Source of the DNA: a virus
Virus record (IMG/VR): IMGVR_UViG_3300042486_000234
Location: 1 to 52,578 of that record
Reading direction: 5' to 3' (one strand)
Length of the DNA stretch: 52,578 bases
The position numbers and the translations under genes were made by a program. Below are positions 9,938 through 28,303 of the stretch, piece by piece. Within the stretch, counting starts at the first letter, position 1. Every line of letters begins with the position of its first letter. The notes beneath the pieces were generated by a model, which was given only the letters and a program-made list of their open reading frames with translations, was not told the DNA's origin and searched no databases.

Positions 9938-10126
9938 TTACTGACCGTAACTTGCAGGAGTTTGTTGCGAGGGTAGCAACTCACTACTATCTGTTTTGTC
10001 ACTAAGTTTACCAATGTCTTCTTTATTATGTTTGTCTGCTAACTCATCACTGCGAGTGTCACCGCCAAAAAATTGACGACCAACCTTACGGTTTGGGTGA
10101 TGTCGGGTGTCTTCTCCGTTAGGCAT
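9938..10126 (-). CDS. DTRHH-tag protein 1
   Basis: This gene encodes 62 residues. It starts with MPNGEDTRHHPNRKVG, one of four proteins here sharing an MP-x-G-[EQ]-DTRH N-terminal tag. The rest is polar and charged with no visible fold. The ATG follows GAGGAGTAAAT, a strong ribosome-binding site. Its function is unknown; the tag suggests a common docking or targeting role for this group. Confidence 0.6.
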   Translation of the reverse strand: MPNGEDTRHHPNRKVGRQFFGGDTRSDELADKHNKEDIGKLSDKTDSSELLPSQQTPASYGQ

Positions 10127-10128
10127 AT

Positions 10129-10464
10129 TTACTCCTCGTAATAATGTGCTGTGCTGTGTGGGTTACTGCGGTCAGGCATATCTATGTCAGTGTTGTGGGT
10201 GTATTGGTCACGATACATCTCATCTACATCTCCGTGGAACCTTTTCACATTTTGTATAATCTGTTCCATTGAAGCAGGTGTACCATCAAGATTGGTTCCA
10301 AAGTGTTTATGCATTTCACCATCTGTCATCGCCTCAGCCACAATTCCGTGTGATTCCGTTTGTGGCTTTAAATACGTAGGCATGCTCTTAACTACTCCTG
10401 CGGTAAATGAAACTGCGTTAAGGTGATTGTCACCTATTTCGTTATTACGATGGTCACGTGCCAT
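10129..10464 (-). CDS. Hypothetical His-rich protein (111 aa)
   Basis: This gene encodes 111 residues, polar, with an unusual number of histidines and acidic residues (MHKHFG, RFHGDVDEMYRDQYTH, HSTAHYYEE). It has no recognised family. It sits between two DTRHH-tag genes and overlaps the upstream one by TAATG, so it belongs to the same expression unit. Metal binding through the histidines is possible but unproven. Confidence 0.55.
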   Translation of the reverse strand: MARDHRNNEIGDNHLNAVSFTAGVVKSMPTYLKPQTESHGIVAEAMTDGEMHKHFGTNLDGTPASMEQIIQNVKRFHGDVDEMYRDQYTHNTDIDMPDRSNPHSTAHYYEE

Positions 10465-10658
10465 TAGTCTCTCATTTCTCTTTCGCTGAATCCAGAATCT
10501 GGGGTTAGACCGTCATTACCACGAGCATCTTCCATCGCTTCGTAAGCATCACGGTCTTCCTGTTCCATCTGCTTTTCACGCATTTCGTTGTGCATATCCA
10601 TAATGTCACGACCAACACGGCGACCCATGTGATGACGAGTGTCTTGTCCTCTAGGCAT
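10464..10658 (-). CDS. DTRHH-tag protein 2
   Basis: This gene encodes 64 residues. The N-terminus MPRGQDTRHHMGRRVG is the shared tag, followed by a highly charged Met/Glu-rich helix (about residues 17-48) and an acidic end. Its first 26 bases are identical to those of the tag gene at 13548, which suggests duplication or strong constraint on the tag. One-base overlaps link it to both neighbours. Confidence 0.6.
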   Translation of the reverse strand: MPRGQDTRHHMGRRVGRDIMDMHNEMREKQMEQEDRDAYEAMEDARGNDGLTPDSGFSEREMRD

Positions 10659-10966
10659 TACTTAATCGGCTTTCCTCTAAATGATGGATTGTTGTTTTCA
10701 TCCCATGAGAATAGCGGTTTCTTTTCTACTCTTCCAGTACCGCCTTTAGCCTTATCAATGAGGTTACGAGGGGCAATGTCAGACAGACGGGCTTCTTGAC
10801 CCGTGTACTCAGGTGTGTTTGGGTCATCCAAGTCAGGATTTCCTGGTCCACCAATCATTGCATCTTTAATGCGAGACATCATTGAAGGCTTTGCCTTCTT
10901 AGCACGATGTGCATCAAGACTTACAATGCGAGCACCGTGATGACGGGTGTCTTCACCTTTAGGCAT
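10658..10966 (-). CDS. DTRHH-tag protein 3
   Basis: This gene encodes 102 residues. MPKGEDTRHHGARIVS is the shared N-terminal tag. It then has a Lys-rich helix (HRAKKAKPSMMSRIKDAM), a Pro/Asp/Gly linker and a C-terminal WDENNNPSFRGKP. There is no known fold. The start overlaps the upstream stop by one base (TAATG). Confidence 0.6.
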   Translation of the reverse strand: MPKGEDTRHHGARIVSLDAHRAKKAKPSMMSRIKDAMIGGPGNPDLDDPNTPEYTGQEARLSDIAPRNLIDKAKGGTGRVEKKPLFSWDENNNPSFRGKPIK

Positions 10967-13076: not shown

Positions 13077-13201
13077 CAGCCATTACCAGCCATACCTGCA
13101 TTCATACCCGTGAGAAAACCACCTTGTGCGCCAGCCACAGCAGTGATTGGGCGTGGTTTAGCCTTTTTAGTTGCTTTCTTCTTCTTCTTTTTAGCAGCCA
13201 C
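13076..13201 (-). CDS. Small Lys-rich protein (41 aa)
   Basis: This is a 41-residue frame from GTG 13199-13201 to TGA 13076-13078. It begins AAKKKKKKATKKAKPRP and ends in a Gly/Ala/Met-rich segment (GGFLTGMNAGMAGNG). The GTG overlaps the upstream TAG (TAGTG) and the TGA overlaps the next ATG, so translation by coupling is likely even though the ribosome-binding site is weak. The Lys run suggests nucleic-acid binding. Confidence 0.5.
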   Translation of the reverse strand: MAAKKKKKKATKKAKPRPITAVAGAQGGFLTGMNAGMAGNG

Positions 13202-13548
13202 TAGTTATACCAACCGTTCCTATATCTTTCTTCACGCTCTTCTTTTGGTGGCATTGGTTTTTCTTTTTTAGGGGCAGGCTTTGACTTTTCTTTATTAGGG
13301 GCAGGCTTTGGAGGGTAACTGTTGTAGTCATCCCTCTTCTTCTGTGGACCATACGGGTCGTTTGGACCACCAGGACCATTAGGACCGCTACCACCACCAG
13401 CGCCAGCAATCTTCTTTTTAGGTGGTTTTTGTCCAGCGCCACCACCACCTGTGCTTGTTTGTGGGGCAGGTGGGTAAAACTTTTCGTTTATTTCACGAAC
13501 ACCTACTTTGCGAGCAGGGTTGTGACGAGTGTCTTGTCCTCTAGGCAT
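13201..13548 (-). CDS. DTRHH-tag protein 4, Pro/Gly/Lys-rich
   Basis: This gene encodes 115 residues. The tag here reads MPRGQDTRHNPARKVG. The remainder is low complexity: a Gly tract, PPKKKIAGAGGGSGPNGPGG, then repeated KP-rich segments (APNKEKSKPAPKKEKPMPPK) and a C-terminal ERYRNGWYN. It is disordered and basic. The tag is the same as in the genes starting at 10126, 10658 and 10966. Confidence 0.6.
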   Translation of the reverse strand: MPRGQDTRHNPARKVGVREINEKFYPPAPQTSTGGGGAGQKPPKKKIAGAGGGSGPNGPGGPNDPYGPQKKRDDYNSYPPKPAPNKEKSKPAPKKEKPMPPKEEREERYRNGWYN

Positions 13549-22625: not shown

Positions 22626-24170
22626 TTATACCTCGCTGTTTGTTAAGAACGAAGACAGTGCGCCTAAGTTCAGTTGAAAGTTTCCCTTACTGTCGTACCC
22701 ACCGTCAACAAAGGCTTTATTGATGTTTCTCTTCTCTTGCAACATTTCGTATTGTCTTTCCTCAATACTGCCCTTCATAACGAATGACACGATATTAACG
22801 TGTGGAAACTCAGATGACAACCTGATAATTCTGGCTTCTCTTTGGTCCAATTTTCCAGCACTCCAAGGAAGGTCATAGGAAATCAAGTAGTTAGCCACGG
22901 GTAAGTCTACGCCGTAACCACCAGCATCAGATGACAAGAACAGCCTTGTGTTCTGGTCTGTAGCAAATTGTTGCTTGGCTTTATCTCTAGATAAAGTATC
23001 CATTCCACCCATAAACAATACGCTGTTAGTAAGGTGTTTAGTTGCTTCTTGAATAAGTTTAAGATTGTTCTTAAAAAATGAAAACAATACAATTTTGTTT
23101 TTAGGGTCTTCATTAAGAACATCTTCAATGTACTGAAGTACAGCATCTAACTTAGGAGTGTTGTACTTACCTGAAAGCATTCCACGAGAAATAATGTCTG
23201 CGGAATAGCGACTTCCTCCAGCAGTCTTATCATCCATAAACAAACAAGCAGATATATGTACTAATTGTGGGTTATCGCAGAACATGCGAAGAGTTGTAAG
23301 TTTGGACATAATGTCACCTTGTGCATCACCTGCACCAGCATTACCGTAGTAGTTAGCCCACAAATCAAAACTACGACCATGTTGTGTAACTGCTTTCTGA
23401 ATTGCTTGTAACAACTCTTCAGCAATTACCTTGTATGTTGCTGCACCTGCTGAATCAAATGGAACAGGAATGAAGTGGTTAATAACCTGGGGTAACTGGT
23501 CTTGAATGTCCTCACGGGTTTTACGAACCATTACATCTTTCATGCTCTCATGTAATGATTTGAGGTTTCGGTATCTGCTTGGCTTGCCAAAGTGGTCACG
23601 GACAATAAAGGTTCGGTCAAACACTTCGTACTTACCCAATACTGCTGGGTCAACAAACTCCATAATTGAAAACAACTCTTCTGGTCTGTTCTCAATTGGT
23701 TGACCCGTAAGTGCAAATCTGTAATGGTACTTTTTACCTATGCGCTTGATTAACCTTGAGCGCTTGGTTCTTGGTGTTTTAATCATTGTTGCTTCGTCAA
23801 CCACAATGGCATCAAACTTATGTTTTTCAAAATCTGCAAGGTCGTTAGCCAGTGACTCTGGGTTTACAATTACATATTGAGAACTCAATGCTGTACGCCA
23901 CAGTTTCTTGCGAGCAGCAACAGTCCCATCAATCACAATAGAAGATGAATCAGTAAACTTTTTAATTTCACGGTCCCATTGATATTTAAGAGATGACGGA
24001 ACAACAACAAGAACTTTGGTCACTTCTTTGGATGCCAACAATGTTTCTAGTGCGGAGATGGTGGTTACTGTTTTACCAGCACCCATCACAAGAGCAAGAA
24101 GCATTTGACCACGGTCAATCATCAACTCGGTGGCCTCTTCTTGAAACGGATACAACTTACCCTTAAACAC
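22626..24170 (-). CDS. SNF2-family DEAD-like helicase/translocase
   Basis: This gene encodes 514 residues from GTG 24168-24170, overlapping the primase end by 8 bases. The first RecA-like half has LYPFQEEA (Q motif), MGAGKT (29-34), VVVPSSLKYQW, VVDEAT (123-128) and LTGQPIENRPEELF. The second half has KIVLFSFFKNN, RLFLSSDAGGYGVDLPVA and a final IIRLSSEF with Q-R-E-A-R-I-I-R. These are the standard motifs I-VI of SNF2 proteins in a compact form, as in phage enzymes that remodel forks or displace proteins. Confidence 0.85.
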   Translation of the reverse strand: MFKGKLYPFQEEATELMIDRGQMLLALVMGAGKTVTTISALETLLASKEVTKVLVVVPSSLKYQWDREIKKFTDSSSIVIDGTVAARKKLWRTALSSQYVIVNPESLANDLADFEKHKFDAIVVDEATMIKTPRTKRSRLIKRIGKKYHYRFALTGQPIENRPEELFSIMEFVDPAVLGKYEVFDRTFIVRDHFGKPSRYRNLKSLHESMKDVMVRKTREDIQDQLPQVINHFIPVPFDSAGAATYKVIAEELLQAIQKAVTQHGRSFDLWANYYGNAGAGDAQGDIMSKLTTLRMFCDNPQLVHISACLFMDDKTAGGSRYSADIISRGMLSGKYNTPKLDAVLQYIEDVLNEDPKNKIVLFSFFKNNLKLIQEATKHLTNSVLFMGGMDTLSRDKAKQQFATDQNTRLFLSSDAGGYGVDLPVANYLISYDLPWSAGKLDQREARIIRLSSEFPHVNIVSFVMKGSIEERQYEMLQEKRNINKAFVDGGYDSKGNFQLNLGALSSFLTNSEV

Positions 24171-25089
24171 TTAACCACCAGGGAAATACTGAGGCGTTTT
24201 TAAGTGCTGTGATAATTTCGTCTTGAGTCATGTCACCGATGTCTTTTGCGTTCGTGTGTGCGTAGTGTATATATTTTATACCATTCCTGAAGGATGGTAG
24301 TTGCTTTTTAAGCCTTTTTGCGGAGTCAATACCTGCATCGTCATTGTCCATTGCAATGATAAGAGTGTCCACATGGTCTGAAAGAATCCTAATCTGTTCT
24401 TTACTAACCGCAGCACCAAAGGTAGCCAAACCACGAACACCGTTAGCAACTGTGTGAATACGAGCAACGTCTAACGGGGACTCAACAAGAACCGCAGTCT
24501 TCTTGTCCAGTTTGTCAATACCGAACAATGTCGCAGATTTCTTTACACCAATTGGATAGTTGCGAACCTTTGATGGTTCTTTCTCTTGCCAGCCAAGCAA
24601 CTCTCCCATTGGAGAAACAATCGGCAAAATCCAAGCCTGCTTCTTTTCGTCAAACCTGATGCCATACTTTCGTGCAGACTCTCGGTCAATGCCACGAGTC
24701 CATAACCAATCGTCAGATGGTGCAGAGAATGCACTAAACATCTTCCAATCAACTTCTGGCTTTACTACCTCAACTGGTTCTGCTGTGAGTCTCTCTAACC
24801 CAGTCTCAATGAGAAAAGAATGTACTGCAATAATGCTGTCAGGTTCACCTGTCAATTCAGAAACAAGCGTGGACAAAGTTCCTTTAGCACCGCATGAGTA
24901 ACAAATCCACAAACCGCTACGTGCGTTCATGGACCATGATGGTGAGTTGTCTGCTTTACCTGTGGTCTTTTCATGCACAGGGCAACACGCAGAAATCTCT
25001 TTCTCACCTACACGCTTTACCTTGACACCTAAACGTGACAAGACATCAGCAATGTCAGTAATACCAGTTGTCCCTGTCGCTGTCATCAT
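24163..25089 (-). CDS. dnaG: DnaG-type DNA primase
   Basis: This gene encodes 308 residues. The zinc-binding start has CCPVHEK (C36, H39) and WICYSCGAKG (C63, C66). A TOPRIM core follows: AVLVESPLDVAR with E203, FGAAVS, and IIAMDNDDAG (D248, D250). It is shorter than bacterial primase and lacks the C-terminal helicase-binding domain, as expected for a phage primase that works with DnaB. It overlaps the DnaB gene by 35 bases, a strong hint of joint synthesis. Confidence 0.85.
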   Translation of the reverse strand: MMTATGTTGITDIADVLSRLGVKVKRVGEKEISACCPVHEKTTGKADNSPSWSMNARSGLWICYSCGAKGTLSTLVSELTGEPDSIIAVHSFLIETGLERLTAEPVEVVKPEVDWKMFSAFSAPSDDWLWTRGIDRESARKYGIRFDEKKQAWILPIVSPMGELLGWQEKEPSKVRNYPIGVKKSATLFGIDKLDKKTAVLVESPLDVARIHTVANGVRGLATFGAAVSKEQIRILSDHVDTLIIAMDNDDAGIDSAKRLKKQLPSFRNGIKYIHYAHTNAKDIGDMTQDEIITALKNASVFPWWLSV

Positions 25090-26320
25090 TCTCTCCCTCT
25101 TCTCCTACTTCTGTAAAGTCCATGTTGTTCCAGTCCCAGTTAATTCGGATTTCTCCAGATGGGGCAGAACGAGCAATAACTACACGAATGATTCCTTGGT
25201 TCTCAATGTCTGGGTCAGACTCAACAGCAAGTACCAAGTCAGAGTCTTGAGCAAACGATGAGGTGTAACCGATTGAGTCAACAGTTACTCTGCGTGACTT
25301 CTTGTTACCTAACTTCCACGAAAGAACCTGTGTAGTACCAACAATTGGAATGTCAGCATTTTGAGCAAGTCGCTTTAACGAACGAGTGATGTTAGTCAAG
25401 GCTTGTGGCGAACCTTTTGGTTCTCCCTGCTCGTCATCCATGAGGTACACACCGTCAACAAACAAAATGTCTGGTTTGTATTCCTGAACTTTTGCCGCTA
25501 GTGAACTTACTGTAGTAAGTGACGAGGTGTCTTCAGTAATGATAAATGGGTGCATGTTCTTGCGTAGTCGCAATGACTCACGCACTTTTTCAAACTCCTG
25601 GTCAGAAAGACTTGCTCTCAAGATATTGCTGTATGGAACTTTGGCAACAATCGCATCGTAACGTGCGGCTTGTTCTTCAGCCGACATTTCAAATGAAACA
25701 AACAGTGGTCGCTTACCGTGAATGTGGGCAGCGTTAGCCATCATCAAGGTCATCAATGATTTACCCTTCTTTGCTTCACCAACGAATGTAATTAACTGTT
25801 GAGGGCGAAGACCTGAAGTAATGCGGTCAAGTCCGTTAATCCCAGTGGGGATACCACGCAGAGAGTTTGGCATCTTGCGAAGTTCGTCATACTTTTCTAA
25901 TCGTGCTTCCCAAGTCTCAATAAGGTTTACATCTCGTAGGCGAGCAACATCTGCTCCAGCCTTTTGAACGCCTGCGGCAAGCAACTTAAATGCTTCACTT
26001 GTATCACCAGCGTTAAGTGCAGGCATCGCTGCTGACATGGCTTCAACAAGGTTGCGTTGTCGGTAGCCAGCGTAGAGTTCATCAACCAATGCAGTGAATG
26101 GTTCTTGTTTGGCATCAACTACTTTTACTTCACCAAACTCCAAACTGAGCGCACGTTCAGTTGGAACTGAACCATGATTACGCCAGTAGGTAATTACCCA
26201 TGACCAAATCTGGCCCCACTCTTTAGTGAAGTGGTCGGCTTTTACACCGTGCTTTAATGGGTATGAAACGTCTTGCTCATTGATTACTTTGCTGATTAAG
26301 AGTTGTTCTGCACTAGCCAT
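25055..26320 (-). CDS. dnaB: DnaB-like replicative helicase
   Basis: This gene encodes 421 residues. The N-terminal helical domain (LLISKVINEQDVSYPLK...) is the DnaB N-domain type. The RecA-like motor starts at GIPTGINGLDRITSGL. Walker A is GEAKKGKS (181-188), VSFEMSAEEQAARYDAI is the H1a region, and DILFVDGVYLMDD is Walker B. GTTQVLSWK is motif H3, and the late RSAPSGEI motif with an acidic tail is typical. It unwinds the fork as a hexamer. The neighbouring DnaC-like ATPase should load it. Confidence 0.9.
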   Translation of the reverse strand: MASAEQLLISKVINEQDVSYPLKHGVKADHFTKEWGQIWSWVITYWRNHGSVPTERALSLEFGEVKVVDAKQEPFTALVDELYAGYRQRNLVEAMSAAMPALNAGDTSEAFKLLAAGVQKAGADVARLRDVNLIETWEARLEKYDELRKMPNSLRGIPTGINGLDRITSGLRPQQLITFVGEAKKGKSLMTLMMANAAHIHGKRPLFVSFEMSAEEQAARYDAIVAKVPYSNILRASLSDQEFEKVRESLRLRKNMHPFIITEDTSSLTTVSSLAAKVQEYKPDILFVDGVYLMDDEQGEPKGSPQALTNITRSLKRLAQNADIPIVGTTQVLSWKLGNKKSRRVTVDSIGYTSSFAQDSDLVLAVESDPDIENQGIIRVVIARSAPSGEIRINWDWNNMDFTEVGEEGENDDSDRDNWYY

Positions 26321-26760
26321 CAGTTATTCCACGCAGTCTTTGATGAGACTACGGTTGCCCTGAGTCCAATTAATTTGTAATGCTCTTGGTCTGCAACATA
26401 AATCTGAGTGATACCACGATTGATGCTGAGGTCATAAGCAAGTTCTTTGATGTCTTGATATGCAACCACGTTTGTTGAAATCCCCTTTTTGAGTAACCAC
26501 CTGTCTATCGCATCAGCGACTTGAGGTGGAAGCAGTGTATAAACCTCTGTACCTATTCCCAACCTGTTTACTGCGTCACTCAAAGATTTTATGGGAAGAG
26601 TATTTGGTTCCCACAGACGGAGGTACGAATCCCATTTCTCATTGCGTAAATAATAAGATGCCTTAACTTTTGCCAAGCCTTCTGGAGGATTAGCAAGCAC
26701 ACCCTCAAACATGGTTGCTTGAGAACGAGCAGTAAACGAAGACAGGTCATTACCTTGCAT
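26320..26760 (-). CDS. Hypothetical protein between DnaB and its loader (146 aa)
   Basis: I choose ATG 26758-26760 (AGGACTAGTCAAC upstream); a TTG ten codons earlier is in frame but overlaps the loader gene more deeply. The product is 146 residues, with a VKASYYLRNEKWDSYLRLWE motif and alternating strands and helices in the second half (NVVAYQDIKELAYDLS, ITQIYVADQEHYKLIGLRAT). It is unknown to me. Conservation of position next to DnaB/DnaC suggests a replication accessory role. Confidence 0.55.
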   Translation of the reverse strand: MQGNDLSSFTARSQATMFEGVLANPPEGLAKVKASYYLRNEKWDSYLRLWEPNTLPIKSLSDAVNRLGIGTEVYTLLPPQVADAIDRWLLKKGISTNVVAYQDIKELAYDLSINRGITQIYVADQEHYKLIGLRATVVSSKTAWNN

Positions 26761-27391
26761 GTTGACTAGTCCTGTAATCCTTTCCTTCAAACGGAATCTG
26801 AAGCGTTGAGTCTTGAAGAATTGATGACAAGCGTGGTCCGTAAACTTTTGCTAAAGATGCAATGGTGTATTCGGAAGTAACGATAGTAATCAACTTCTGT
26901 TCATACCGACTGTTCAACAATGATACAAGAGCACCTTTTGTAAAATCAGTTTTCTTCTCAGCACCAAGACCGTCAAGCACCACAATGTCGTAAACCGAAT
27001 TGAGGTACTTAAGCATGTACTCATCGCCGTACTCTTCTGGCAACTCCCCGTCATTACGAATCTCATCGTAAGAGGCTTCAACAAACTTTTCGGTAGTGAT
27101 AAAGAAACCACCAACTTGTTTAGTTGCCAGTAACTCTGTCAACATTGCAGAAGCAAGGTGAGTTTTTCCTGTGCCAGTTGTTCCGCATAAATACAAACCT
27201 TCTCCGTTTGTACGGTTGTCATCAAAGTTCCCCATCCATCCACGAATGGCCTTGACAACACCCCAACTACCAACTTCTTCGTTGTAGTTTTCTAAAGTCT
27301 TATCTGCATACCTACGAGGAATGTGTGCGTTGGATACACGCTCTTTTGGTTGGCGGTTGCGCCAGTAACGAGGACCATGCCAATCAGTCAT
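26750..27391 (-). CDS. DnaC-like helicase-loader ATPase
   Basis: I use ATG 27389-27391 (GGAG ten bases upstream); an in-frame ATG nine codons earlier lies inside the previous gene. The product is 213 residues. CGTTGTGKTHLASAML is Walker A with the following helix, DIVVLDGLG is Walker B (Gly in place of the second acidic residue), and ITIVTSEYTIASL is sensor I. The N-terminus is basic (WRNRQPKER). DnaC/DnaI-type proteins deliver DnaB to origins. With the initiator gene upstream this mirrors lambda O-P. Confidence 0.8.
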   Translation of the reverse strand: MTDWHGPRYWRNRQPKERVSNAHIPRRYADKTLENYNEEVGSWGVVKAIRGWMGNFDDNRTNGEGLYLCGTTGTGKTHLASAMLTELLATKQVGGFFITTEKFVEASYDEIRNDGELPEEYGDEYMLKYLNSVYDIVVLDGLGAEKKTDFTKGALVSLLNSRYEQKLITIVTSEYTIASLAKVYGPRLSSILQDSTLQIPFEGKDYRTSQHAR

Positions 27392-27791
27392 TAAGGTACT
27401 TCTCCAATCGTGGGTCAAACTTCATCTGGTCTTGTGCGGTCTGCACTGTACTGCCCTGAACACGTGCGAACAACTCACCTCTTCTTGCAGCAAATGCTCG
27501 CCACGGAGTTTCTTGTTCTTTTAATGGTGTTCGTTTAATATCATCAGCAAACAAGTCAATCATTTGGTAAATCTGTTCATGTGTTACCGAGTCTGCAACC
27601 ATTGTGCTAAAGATTTTCATCATGGCTGGACCGTTAACAGGGGCGTTTAAAGACATAGACATACCAGAAGTCCTATCGTGAAGGTATGCAACTAAATCTT
27701 TAAGGTTCTTCTTCTTTGTTGGTTCAGCCTTCGGCTTGTCTTCATCAGCGCCGATTACTTTGACATCCCAGTCATCGTGTTTCTTTTTCAC
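27384..27791 (-). CDS. Replication accessory protein (135 aa), unidentified
   Basis: This gene encodes 135 residues from GTG 27789-27791, overlapping the initiator stop (GTGA) and itself overlapping the loader gene. The N-terminus is Lys-rich and disordered. The rest is helical, with MSMSLNAPVNGPAMMKIFST and ETPWRAFAARRGELFARV. Its position, between initiator and loader, suggests a bridging role. No family is recognised. Confidence 0.5.
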   Translation of the reverse strand: MKKKHDDWDVKVIGADEDKPKAEPTKKKNLKDLVAYLHDRTSGMSMSLNAPVNGPAMMKIFSTMVADSVTHEQIYQMIDLFADDIKRTPLKEQETPWRAFAARRGELFARVQGSTVQTAQDQMKFDPRLEKYLND

Positions 27792-28303
27792 TCCGCCTCC
27801 AAGTTTTTAATCTGGCGCATCCACCTAGGGTCTTGAAGCATAAAAGTAGGAATTTTTCTATCTTTCTTTTTGGCTCCCTCTAGGGAATGATTAGTCTCTA
27901 TAGATTGGGTGTCAGGGGTGACACCCTCCGAGGGTGTCGCTGGTGACACTAGGGGGGTGTCACTGCTGACACTATGGGGGGTGTCGCTGGTGACACCCTC
28001 CCTGGATTTCGGGTTGTTAAAGTCAACGGTGTACAAGTTTGTTTTGTTGTTTCCAGCCGAGGCTTTACGAATAGTTTTTCGGAGCACCCCAGCAGACTCA
28101 ATCCGCTTCATGGCACGGATAATCGTGCTCCTACCCAAACCTGTCTTTTCAGCAAGGTGGTCGTAAGACGTAGTGAATTGCTGTGTGTCATTGTCCATGT
28201 ACTTCAAAGCGTTTACTAGTACGCATAGGGCTACTGGGTCGTTTCCGATGTACTCCATGACCCAACTTGGAATCGGGATAAAGGTTCCACTGAACTTTGC
28301 CAT
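27788..28303 (-). CDS. Winged-helix replication initiator (lambda O-like), iterons inside the gene
   Basis: This gene encodes 171 residues. Residues ~20-95 form a winged helix: DPVALCVLVNALKYMD, TTSYDHLAEKTGLGRSTIIR, MKRIESAGVLRKTIRK, TNLYTVDF. A Ser/Thr/Pro linker (about 100-133), made of near-repeats such as GVTSDTP, VSSDTP and GVTPDTQ, is encoded by four DNA iterons. The C-terminus (KDRKIPTFMLQDPRWMRQ, ~147-164) may contact the loader. An N-terminal DNA-binding domain, a linker encoded by its own binding sites and a short C-terminal partner-binding part is the design of lambda O. The ATG follows GAGGAGAAATTCAAAC. Confidence 0.75.
   Translation of the reverse strand: MAKFSGTFIPIPSWVMEYIGNDPVALCVLVNALKYMDNDTQQFTTSYDHLAEKTGLGRSTIIRAMKRIESAGVLRKTIRKASAGNNKTNLYTVDFNNPKSREGVTSDTPHSVSSDTPLVSPATPSEGVTPDTQSIETNHSLEGAKKKDRKIPTFMLQDPRWMRQIKNLEAE
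27907..28004. repeat. Four ~18-bp dyad iterons, candidate replication origin
   Basis: On the plus strand GGGTGTC-N3-G[GC]TGACAC[CT] begins at 27907, 27932, 27955 and 27979 (steps of 25, 23 and 24 bases). GGTGTC and GACACC are inverted, so each unit is an interrupted palindrome. The lower-coordinate flank (27841-27900) is about two-thirds A/T and could melt. The repeats lie inside the initiator gene and encode its Ser/Thr/Pro linker, as in lambda ori. Confidence 0.75.

Follow-up and report, generated by a model that had tools for sequence, protein, structure and literature searches.

In bacteriophage lambda, four iterons and an AT-rich tract lie in the middle of the O gene and are bound by dimers of the O protein (PMC7466680), while on the plasmid pSK41 four Rep boxes lie midway along the gene of a RepA_N initiator and are bound by the winged helix of that initiator, and the linker that they encode can be deleted (PMC5703833). 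The chimeric plasmid pPR9, whose rep carries an HTH_36 N-terminal domain, replicates autonomously (PMC5703833), and RepA_N domain and origin vary together among the replicons of phage satellites (PMC8263062). With lambda, pSK41 and pPR9 as precedents, the plan of an origin inside an initiator gene is therefore already known. The TGACACC repeats of pWTY27 were considered as a further described precedent and set aside, as they are conjugation sites and not an origin. To our knowledge, mapped replication origins exist for few phages beyond the classic models, and the isolate collection yielded no mapped origin in phages related to the one described here.

The present locus lies in a window of 52,578 bases, by which we mean the whole stretch of viral DNA that was analysed. 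A search of the open-access literature for a described GTGTC/GACAC iteron found none; subscription journals may hold one. Measured against that literature, we did not find described the common GTGTC site, its four-copy geometry throughout a family or the co-variation of recognition helix and half-site, and we regard as equally new the A-rich, strand-asymmetric stretch after the last site, with AAGARTA in most relatives, and the kept gene order.

Four iterons within the gene of a winged-helix initiator

The window carries four exact copies of GGGTGTCNNNGSTGACACY with steps of 25, 23 and 24 bases (Table 1), each of them a GTGTC-N6-GACAC palindrome and all lying within the linker part of the gene for a 171-aa initiator. 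When up to three mismatches are allowed, GGGTGTCNNNGSTGACACY gives 8 matches in the window against 1.14 expected from shuffles, and none of 100 shuffles reaches 8. No further exact copy of GGGTGTCNNNGSTGACACY occurs in the window outside the array, and GTGTCN5TGACAC is absent from the rest of the 52,578-base record.

Table 1 Iterons, A-rich stretch and genes of the replication module, in coordinates of the window
Feature	Position	Strand	Sequence or remarks
Iteron 1 (first in gene direction)	27979..27997	+	GGGTGTCGCTGGTGACACC
Iteron 2	27955..27973	+	GGGTGTCACTGCTGACACT
Iteron 3	27932..27950	+	GGGTGTCGCTGGTGACACT; other reading frame
Iteron 4 (adjoins A-rich stretch)	27907..27925	+	GGGTGTCAGGGGTGACACC
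Presumed DNA-unwinding stretch	27848..27906	-	A-rich on coding strand; AT 0.65, low synonymous change
Initiator gene, 171 aa	27788..28303	-	HTH_36 and PHROG 270 matches, AlphaFold model
135-aa gene between initiator and loader	27384..27791	-	Same place in relatives; all-helical; proposed adaptor
DnaC-like AAA+ helicase loader	26750..27418	-	PHROG 50, E 2.8e-41
156-aa conserved gene between loader and DnaB	26320..26790	-	Conserved order
DnaB-like replicative helicase	25055..26320	-	PHROG 19, E 2.9e-62; DnaB_C, E 4e-31
DnaG-like primase (zinc ribbon and Toprim)	24163..25089	-	PHROG 47, E 1.3e-49

The initiator comprises a winged-helix HTH_36 domain (residues ~8-100), the iteron-encoded linker (~103-132), a stretch encoded by the A-rich DNA and a C-terminal helix with a DPRW motif (~153-170). 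It matches the Pfam profile HTH_36 (PF13730) at 31.7 bits, above the curated cutoff of 25 (E 1.4e-7), and PHROG 270 'replication initiation' at E 2.3e-15; initiators of the HTH_36 type are found in the 'replication initiation' PHROG families 270, 391 and 428, and by its profile match the window protein is a member. At E <= 0.1 there is no Pfam match to Phage_rep_O (PF04492), nor is there a Pfam match to RepA_N (PF06970). The AlphaFold model is confident over residues ~11-100 and disordered over 103-148, and the DPRW-bearing helix is the one helix predicted in the ~40 residues that follow the iteron-coded linker, where a C-terminal domain of the size found in lambda O, which in lambda binds the loader P, is not present. 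A Foldseek search with this model places the RepA_N domains 5kbj, 4pql and 4pt7 among the top matches (E ~1e-3, probability 1.00) and the DnaD N-terminal domain 2v79 at a lower rank; whole-model TM scores against RepA_N are low (0.37-0.47) because the linker and tail of the initiator are disordered. As modelled, the winged-helix fold resembles the RepA N-terminal domain, and the nearest solved initiator folds are those of plasmid RepA_N proteins.

The initial annotation had described a lambda-O-like initiator, built of a winged-helix domain, a linker and a short C terminus, with four palindromic copies at 27907-28004 that encode residues ~100-133. The copies, their start, their steps and their location in the linker are as it described them, and so is the domain layout of the protein, while the end of the array moves to 27997 and the encoded residues to those given above. 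The likeness to lambda O and its origin lies in the plan, in which four iterons sit in the initiator gene between the DNA-binding domain and the C terminus, an AT-rich stretch adjoins them and a loader gene follows downstream; an initiator dimer on each iteron, as in lambda, is probable here too. It does not extend to the protein family, given the missing Phage_rep_O match, the few residues after the linker and the RepA_N proteins as nearest folds, and the iteron sequence is likewise unrelated. Furthermore, lambda uses P and the host DnaB, whereas the window phage has a DnaC-like AAA+ loader, its own DnaB and primase, and an extra 135-aa gene between initiator and loader.

With the RepA_N plasmid initiators (pSK41 and pTZ2162 RepA) the window protein shares four boxes inside the gene as well as the structural matches, but these belong to another Pfam family, their C-terminal domain recruits host factors such as primase, and they have no phage loader and helicase operon. 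The Rep of pPR9 is of the same DNA-binding family, HTH_36.

Conservation of the array and of the adjoining A-rich stretch

Nine IMG/VR loci encode the initiator at 82-100% identity, and their DNA alignment keeps the register of all four sites with zero gaps. In L007, L008, L009 and L011 both codons and amino acids are altered while the half-sites remain GTGWC (or GTRTC). The synonymous-difference fraction among the near relatives, i.e., the share of differing sequence pairs among codons that encode an identical residue, is 0.343 over codons 1-99, 0.072 over codons 100-133, which hold the array, and 0.142 over codons 134-144; synonymous change thus drops about fivefold over the array, and none of 20,000 permutations gave a value as low as that of codons 100-144.

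With an alignment of sixteen initiators as the seed, a search by protein alone yielded 80 loci, the most distant at ~40% identity. These hold 56 distinct genes, two of which lack a complete linker at contig ends, and each of the other 54 carries four sites. The spacing of the sites in distant relatives is 22-33 bp, with step sets of 24/23/25, 22/24/24, 24/22/24, 30/23/25, 26/22/24, 33/22/24 and 22/24/23. Over 130 distinct sites the half-site consensus is RGTGWC, in which G1, T2 and C5 are practically invariant, G3 is nearly so and position 4 is T or A. A search for the iteron in relatives, and a test of whether its spacing is kept while codons vary, had been suggested at the outset, and both come out in favour of the array: it is kept in every homolog found by protein alone, and its register holds where codons and even amino acids differ, with synonymous change suppressed over the array and the stretch that follows. 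The initial view that the plan is unusual in such a phage has to be given up, since every one of the 54 complete homologs has the same array, as do many HTH_36 initiators that are unrelated to them. The window phage belongs to a large family of uncultured phages and is no oddity.

On the 3' side of the gene, the 60 bases past the last site have an AT content of 0.65 in the window, in line with the two-thirds first estimated, and of up to 75% in relatives. The first ~30 bases of this stretch, CAATCTATAGAGACTAATCATTCYCTAGAGG in the coding direction (27907 down to ~27877), are nearly unchanged at the DNA level in close relatives. Its coding strand is strongly asymmetric across the family, with A:T = 1223:423, and the stretch after the last site contains AAGARTA 52 times where shuffles give 2.5, the usual step being 13 or 16. 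These AAGARTA repeats belong to most, more distant relatives, while the close group of the window is without them and has CAATCTATAGAGACTAATCATTCYCTAGAGG instead.

The replication module

The initiator gene sits in a module with genes for the loader, the helicase and the primase. The order of initiator, 135-aa gene, DnaC-like loader, 156-aa gene and DnaB is kept in all 46 loci tested, as far as each locus extends, and BLAST located the 135-aa gene in 45 of these. The neighbourhood had been read at first as one 135-aa gene followed by a DnaC-like ATPase, DnaB and primase, to which the 156-aa gene between loader and DnaB has to be added. Members of the 135-aa family have a conserved DDWG...G.D start and an all-helical core, with no match among Pfam, PHROG, PDB sequences or PDB folds; the top PDB sequence matches are designed helical proteins and composition-like, and two lambda P loader chains at E 2.9-4.7 are not significant. 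We also considered that the 135-aa protein might be a split-off C-terminal domain of the initiator, an idea rejected because its profile matches its own orthologs only, among all ORFs of the fetched loci. The 156-aa family has no match in Pfam or PHROG. Both products are promising primosome-adaptor candidates.

In some relatives, further genes lie between the initiator and the 135-aa gene (L174:3565-5103, with gaps also in L143, L147 and L154), and the insert in L174 includes a 278-aa ORF with a KIDGSNG motif that, judged by eye, is like that of RNA/DNA ligase nucleotidyltransferases. Elsewhere in the window, matches to WhiB, tail sheath and baseplate wedge bear out the description of a contractile-tailed, WhiB-carrying phage. 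Near large late ORFs, at least four small neighbouring genes on the minus strand (9938-10126, 10464-10658, 10658-10966 and 13201-13548) have the common start MP[NRK]G[EQ]DTRHxxxRxVG, which suggests a small paralogous family.

A proposed in-gene origin and its alternatives

We propose that the array at 27907-27997 and the adjoining A-rich stretch are, in all probability, the theta-type replication origin of the phage, placed inside the coding sequence for its initiator. Each GTGTC-N6-GACAC palindrome would be bound by the 171-aa winged-helix protein as a dimer, so that every GTGTC half-site meets a recognition helix; in that helix, Arg58 and Arg63 would recognise the two G's, and residue 59 would recognise base pair 3. 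Four such dimers, ~24 bp apart, could assemble into a complex resembling the lambda O-some, which would strain and open the A-rich stretch on its 3' side. The DnaC-like ATPase would then deliver DnaB to the single strand, perhaps via the C-terminal helix of the initiator and/or the 135-aa protein, and primase would come after DnaB.

The sites could instead bind the winged-helix protein for autoregulation, i.e., for transcription control of the replication operon and not as an origin. Palindromic winged-helix sites in the first gene of an operon could act as a roadblock, and HTH domains of this type are also found in repressors, but we consider this explanation unlikely: the sites lie ~300-400 bp inside the gene and not at a promoter, they always come in fours, the A-rich asymmetric stretch is always next to them, and loader and DnaB are always downstream. 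The two roles can also coexist. It is less likely still, to the point of being very improbable, that the array is an initiator-bound control element, acting by titration, handcuffing or incompatibility, with initiation elsewhere in the genome. Plasmid iterons do both, and the window represents about half of a ~95 kb genome; the conserved A-rich stretch beside the array and the order of loader and helicase genes nevertheless speak for initiation at this place. The GC3 skew of the coding strands also differs across the array, at ~28 kb, with -0.019 to the left and -0.119 to the right (permutation p 0.006), fitting a bidirectional origin near 28 kb but confounded with the early and late gene blocks, and for this reason we rejected GC skew as independent evidence of the origin.

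We give hardly any credence to the explanation that the repeat is a feature of the protein, a Ser/Thr/Pro linker with a repeated VTxDTP motif, of which the DNA repeat would be a by-product. Three of the four copies in the window do lie in one frame and encode similar peptides, but the steps are not multiples of 3, the copies occupy two frames, and the linker is predicted to be disordered. Across the relatives, the sites use frames 0 and 1 and never frame 2, which is unused because the common TGACAC would there give a TGA stop; such varied frame use points to a DNA signal that is accommodated by the reading frame and not to a peptide repeat. Synonymous sites are frozen and amino acids differ where GTGWC stays, and we rejected the protein repeat on frame use and synonymous constraint. 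Equally improbable are mRNA hairpins or DNA cruciforms, since, although each site can form a stem of 5-6 bp with a loop of 4-6 nt, position-4 changes affect one arm only in 34 of 38 sites and so break the would-be pairing, as expected of DNA half-sites, and AA doubles at this position number 4 against the ~2.8 predicted by independence, with no excess of compensatory changes, on which grounds the RNA hairpin was rejected.

If the in-gene origin is right, the family would provide a natural experiment in which initiator and origin are coded by the same bases and change together. Its short (~170-aa) initiators would also make convenient subjects for structural studies of origin opening and of loading by DnaC-type proteins.

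Recognition helix and half-site

The recognition helix of the initiator, G-R-S-T-I-I-R (residues 57-63), aligns with its E. coli CRP counterpart, R180-E-T-V-G-R185. In CRP, G2 of TGTGA is contacted by R180, and the G4:C4 pair is read by R185 together with E181 (PMC11253593). In this register the GTGWC half-site corresponds to G2-T3-G4-A5 of the CRP site. Substitutions of Glu181 in CRP change specificity at the equivalent base pair. Residue 63 is Arg in 56 of 56 genes and residue 58 is Arg or Lys, which, on the alignment, would match the invariant GTG.

The counterpart of CRP Glu181, residue 59, is Arg or Ser in all 56 genes except L169 (Ile) and L007 (Thr), which are far apart in the tree. Base 3 is A (GTATC) in 10 of the 16 half-sites of the Ile59 and Thr59 genes and in 2 of 422 half-sites of the others; half-sites within one gene are not independent, and the base-3 rule therefore rests on two contrasts, from two independent lineages. 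Base 4 is A in 64 of 364 half-sites with Arg59 and in 0 of 58 with Ser59. An apparent protein-to-DNA reading rule links residue 59 to base 3 of the half-site. The position of residue 63 is Arg in 42, Lys in one and unaligned in one of the 44 array-bearing ORFs obtained by the DNA search below, and it is Ala (ZF40) or Gln (MD8) in initiators with other in-gene repeats. In every complete member of the family, a single gene is enough to locate the probable origin, and apparently it also reveals the contact between protein and DNA.

Distribution of the site beyond the family

Viral contigs were searched at the DNA level with a gapped pattern of one and a half sites, the reversed pattern serving as control, and at least 119 contigs were found against 10 for the reversed pattern. 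Among 38 representatives, hand-picked from the ORFs that cover two or more sites, 36 match PHROG 270 'replication initiation protein', 33 HTH_36, two DnaT and one Phage_rep_O. A stricter two-site pattern, run over 84,980 bacterial and archaeal genomes, returned 32 loci, of which about half are initiator genes. Those of the HTH_36 type lie on contigs assigned to Delta-, Beta- and Alphaproteobacteria, Actinobacteria and Terriglobia, and on a planctomycete contig the pattern is found in the gene of a Phage_rep_O-like protein. The same GTGTC-N6-GACAC site is also present in RepA_N initiator genes of two Ruminococcus genomes (L205:5794-5881 and L210:6003-6138), in 4-8 copies at steps of exactly 24 bp. 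The remaining loci are isolated site pairs within unrelated genes. One Tannerellaceae locus (L207:3052-3730) has a ~21 bp repeat with GTGTC, open in several frames, in a gene that is not initiator-like, and looks like a simple tandem repeat.

It is conceivable, if somewhat short of probable, that four or more copies of GTGTC-N6-GACAC, about two and a quarter helical turns apart in an initiator gene, are a single ancient origin signature, common to the HTH_36 and RepA_N types of initiator in phages and plasmids from different bacterial phyla, and that its recognition follows a CRP-like rule in which residues 58, 59 and 63 specify bases 1, 3 and 4. If this were true, the origin of many uncultured phages could be read, and the half-site predicted, from the initiator gene alone, giving an origin finder for such phages and for mobile elements that works from sequence only. 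The wider value of the locus lies in a site and a rule by which an initiator gene may reveal where the origin is.

The window protein and L014, used as queries, have essentially no homologs in isolated phages, and no GTGTC array was found near the DnaC and DnaB genes of Streptomyces phage Alone3, which was chosen by its related DnaB. With the more distant L182 as query, lambdoid-like temperate phages are recovered, and these have other in-gene repeats. ZF40, Serratia BZS1, Klebsiella RAH1, Stenotrophomonas BUCT708 and Pseudomonas MD8, temperate phages with O-like genes, resemble the window phage in having repeats midway through an HTH initiator gene, mostly at steps of ~21-25 bp, but the repeat is of the TATGCC/TGTGCC type or, in MD8, consists of 17-nt units. 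In the first four of these (L264, L265, L266 and L268) the TATGCC/TGTGCC-type repeats lie mid-gene at 24-bp steps, and they apparently form a separate family of in-gene iterons, paired with a recognition helix of another kind.
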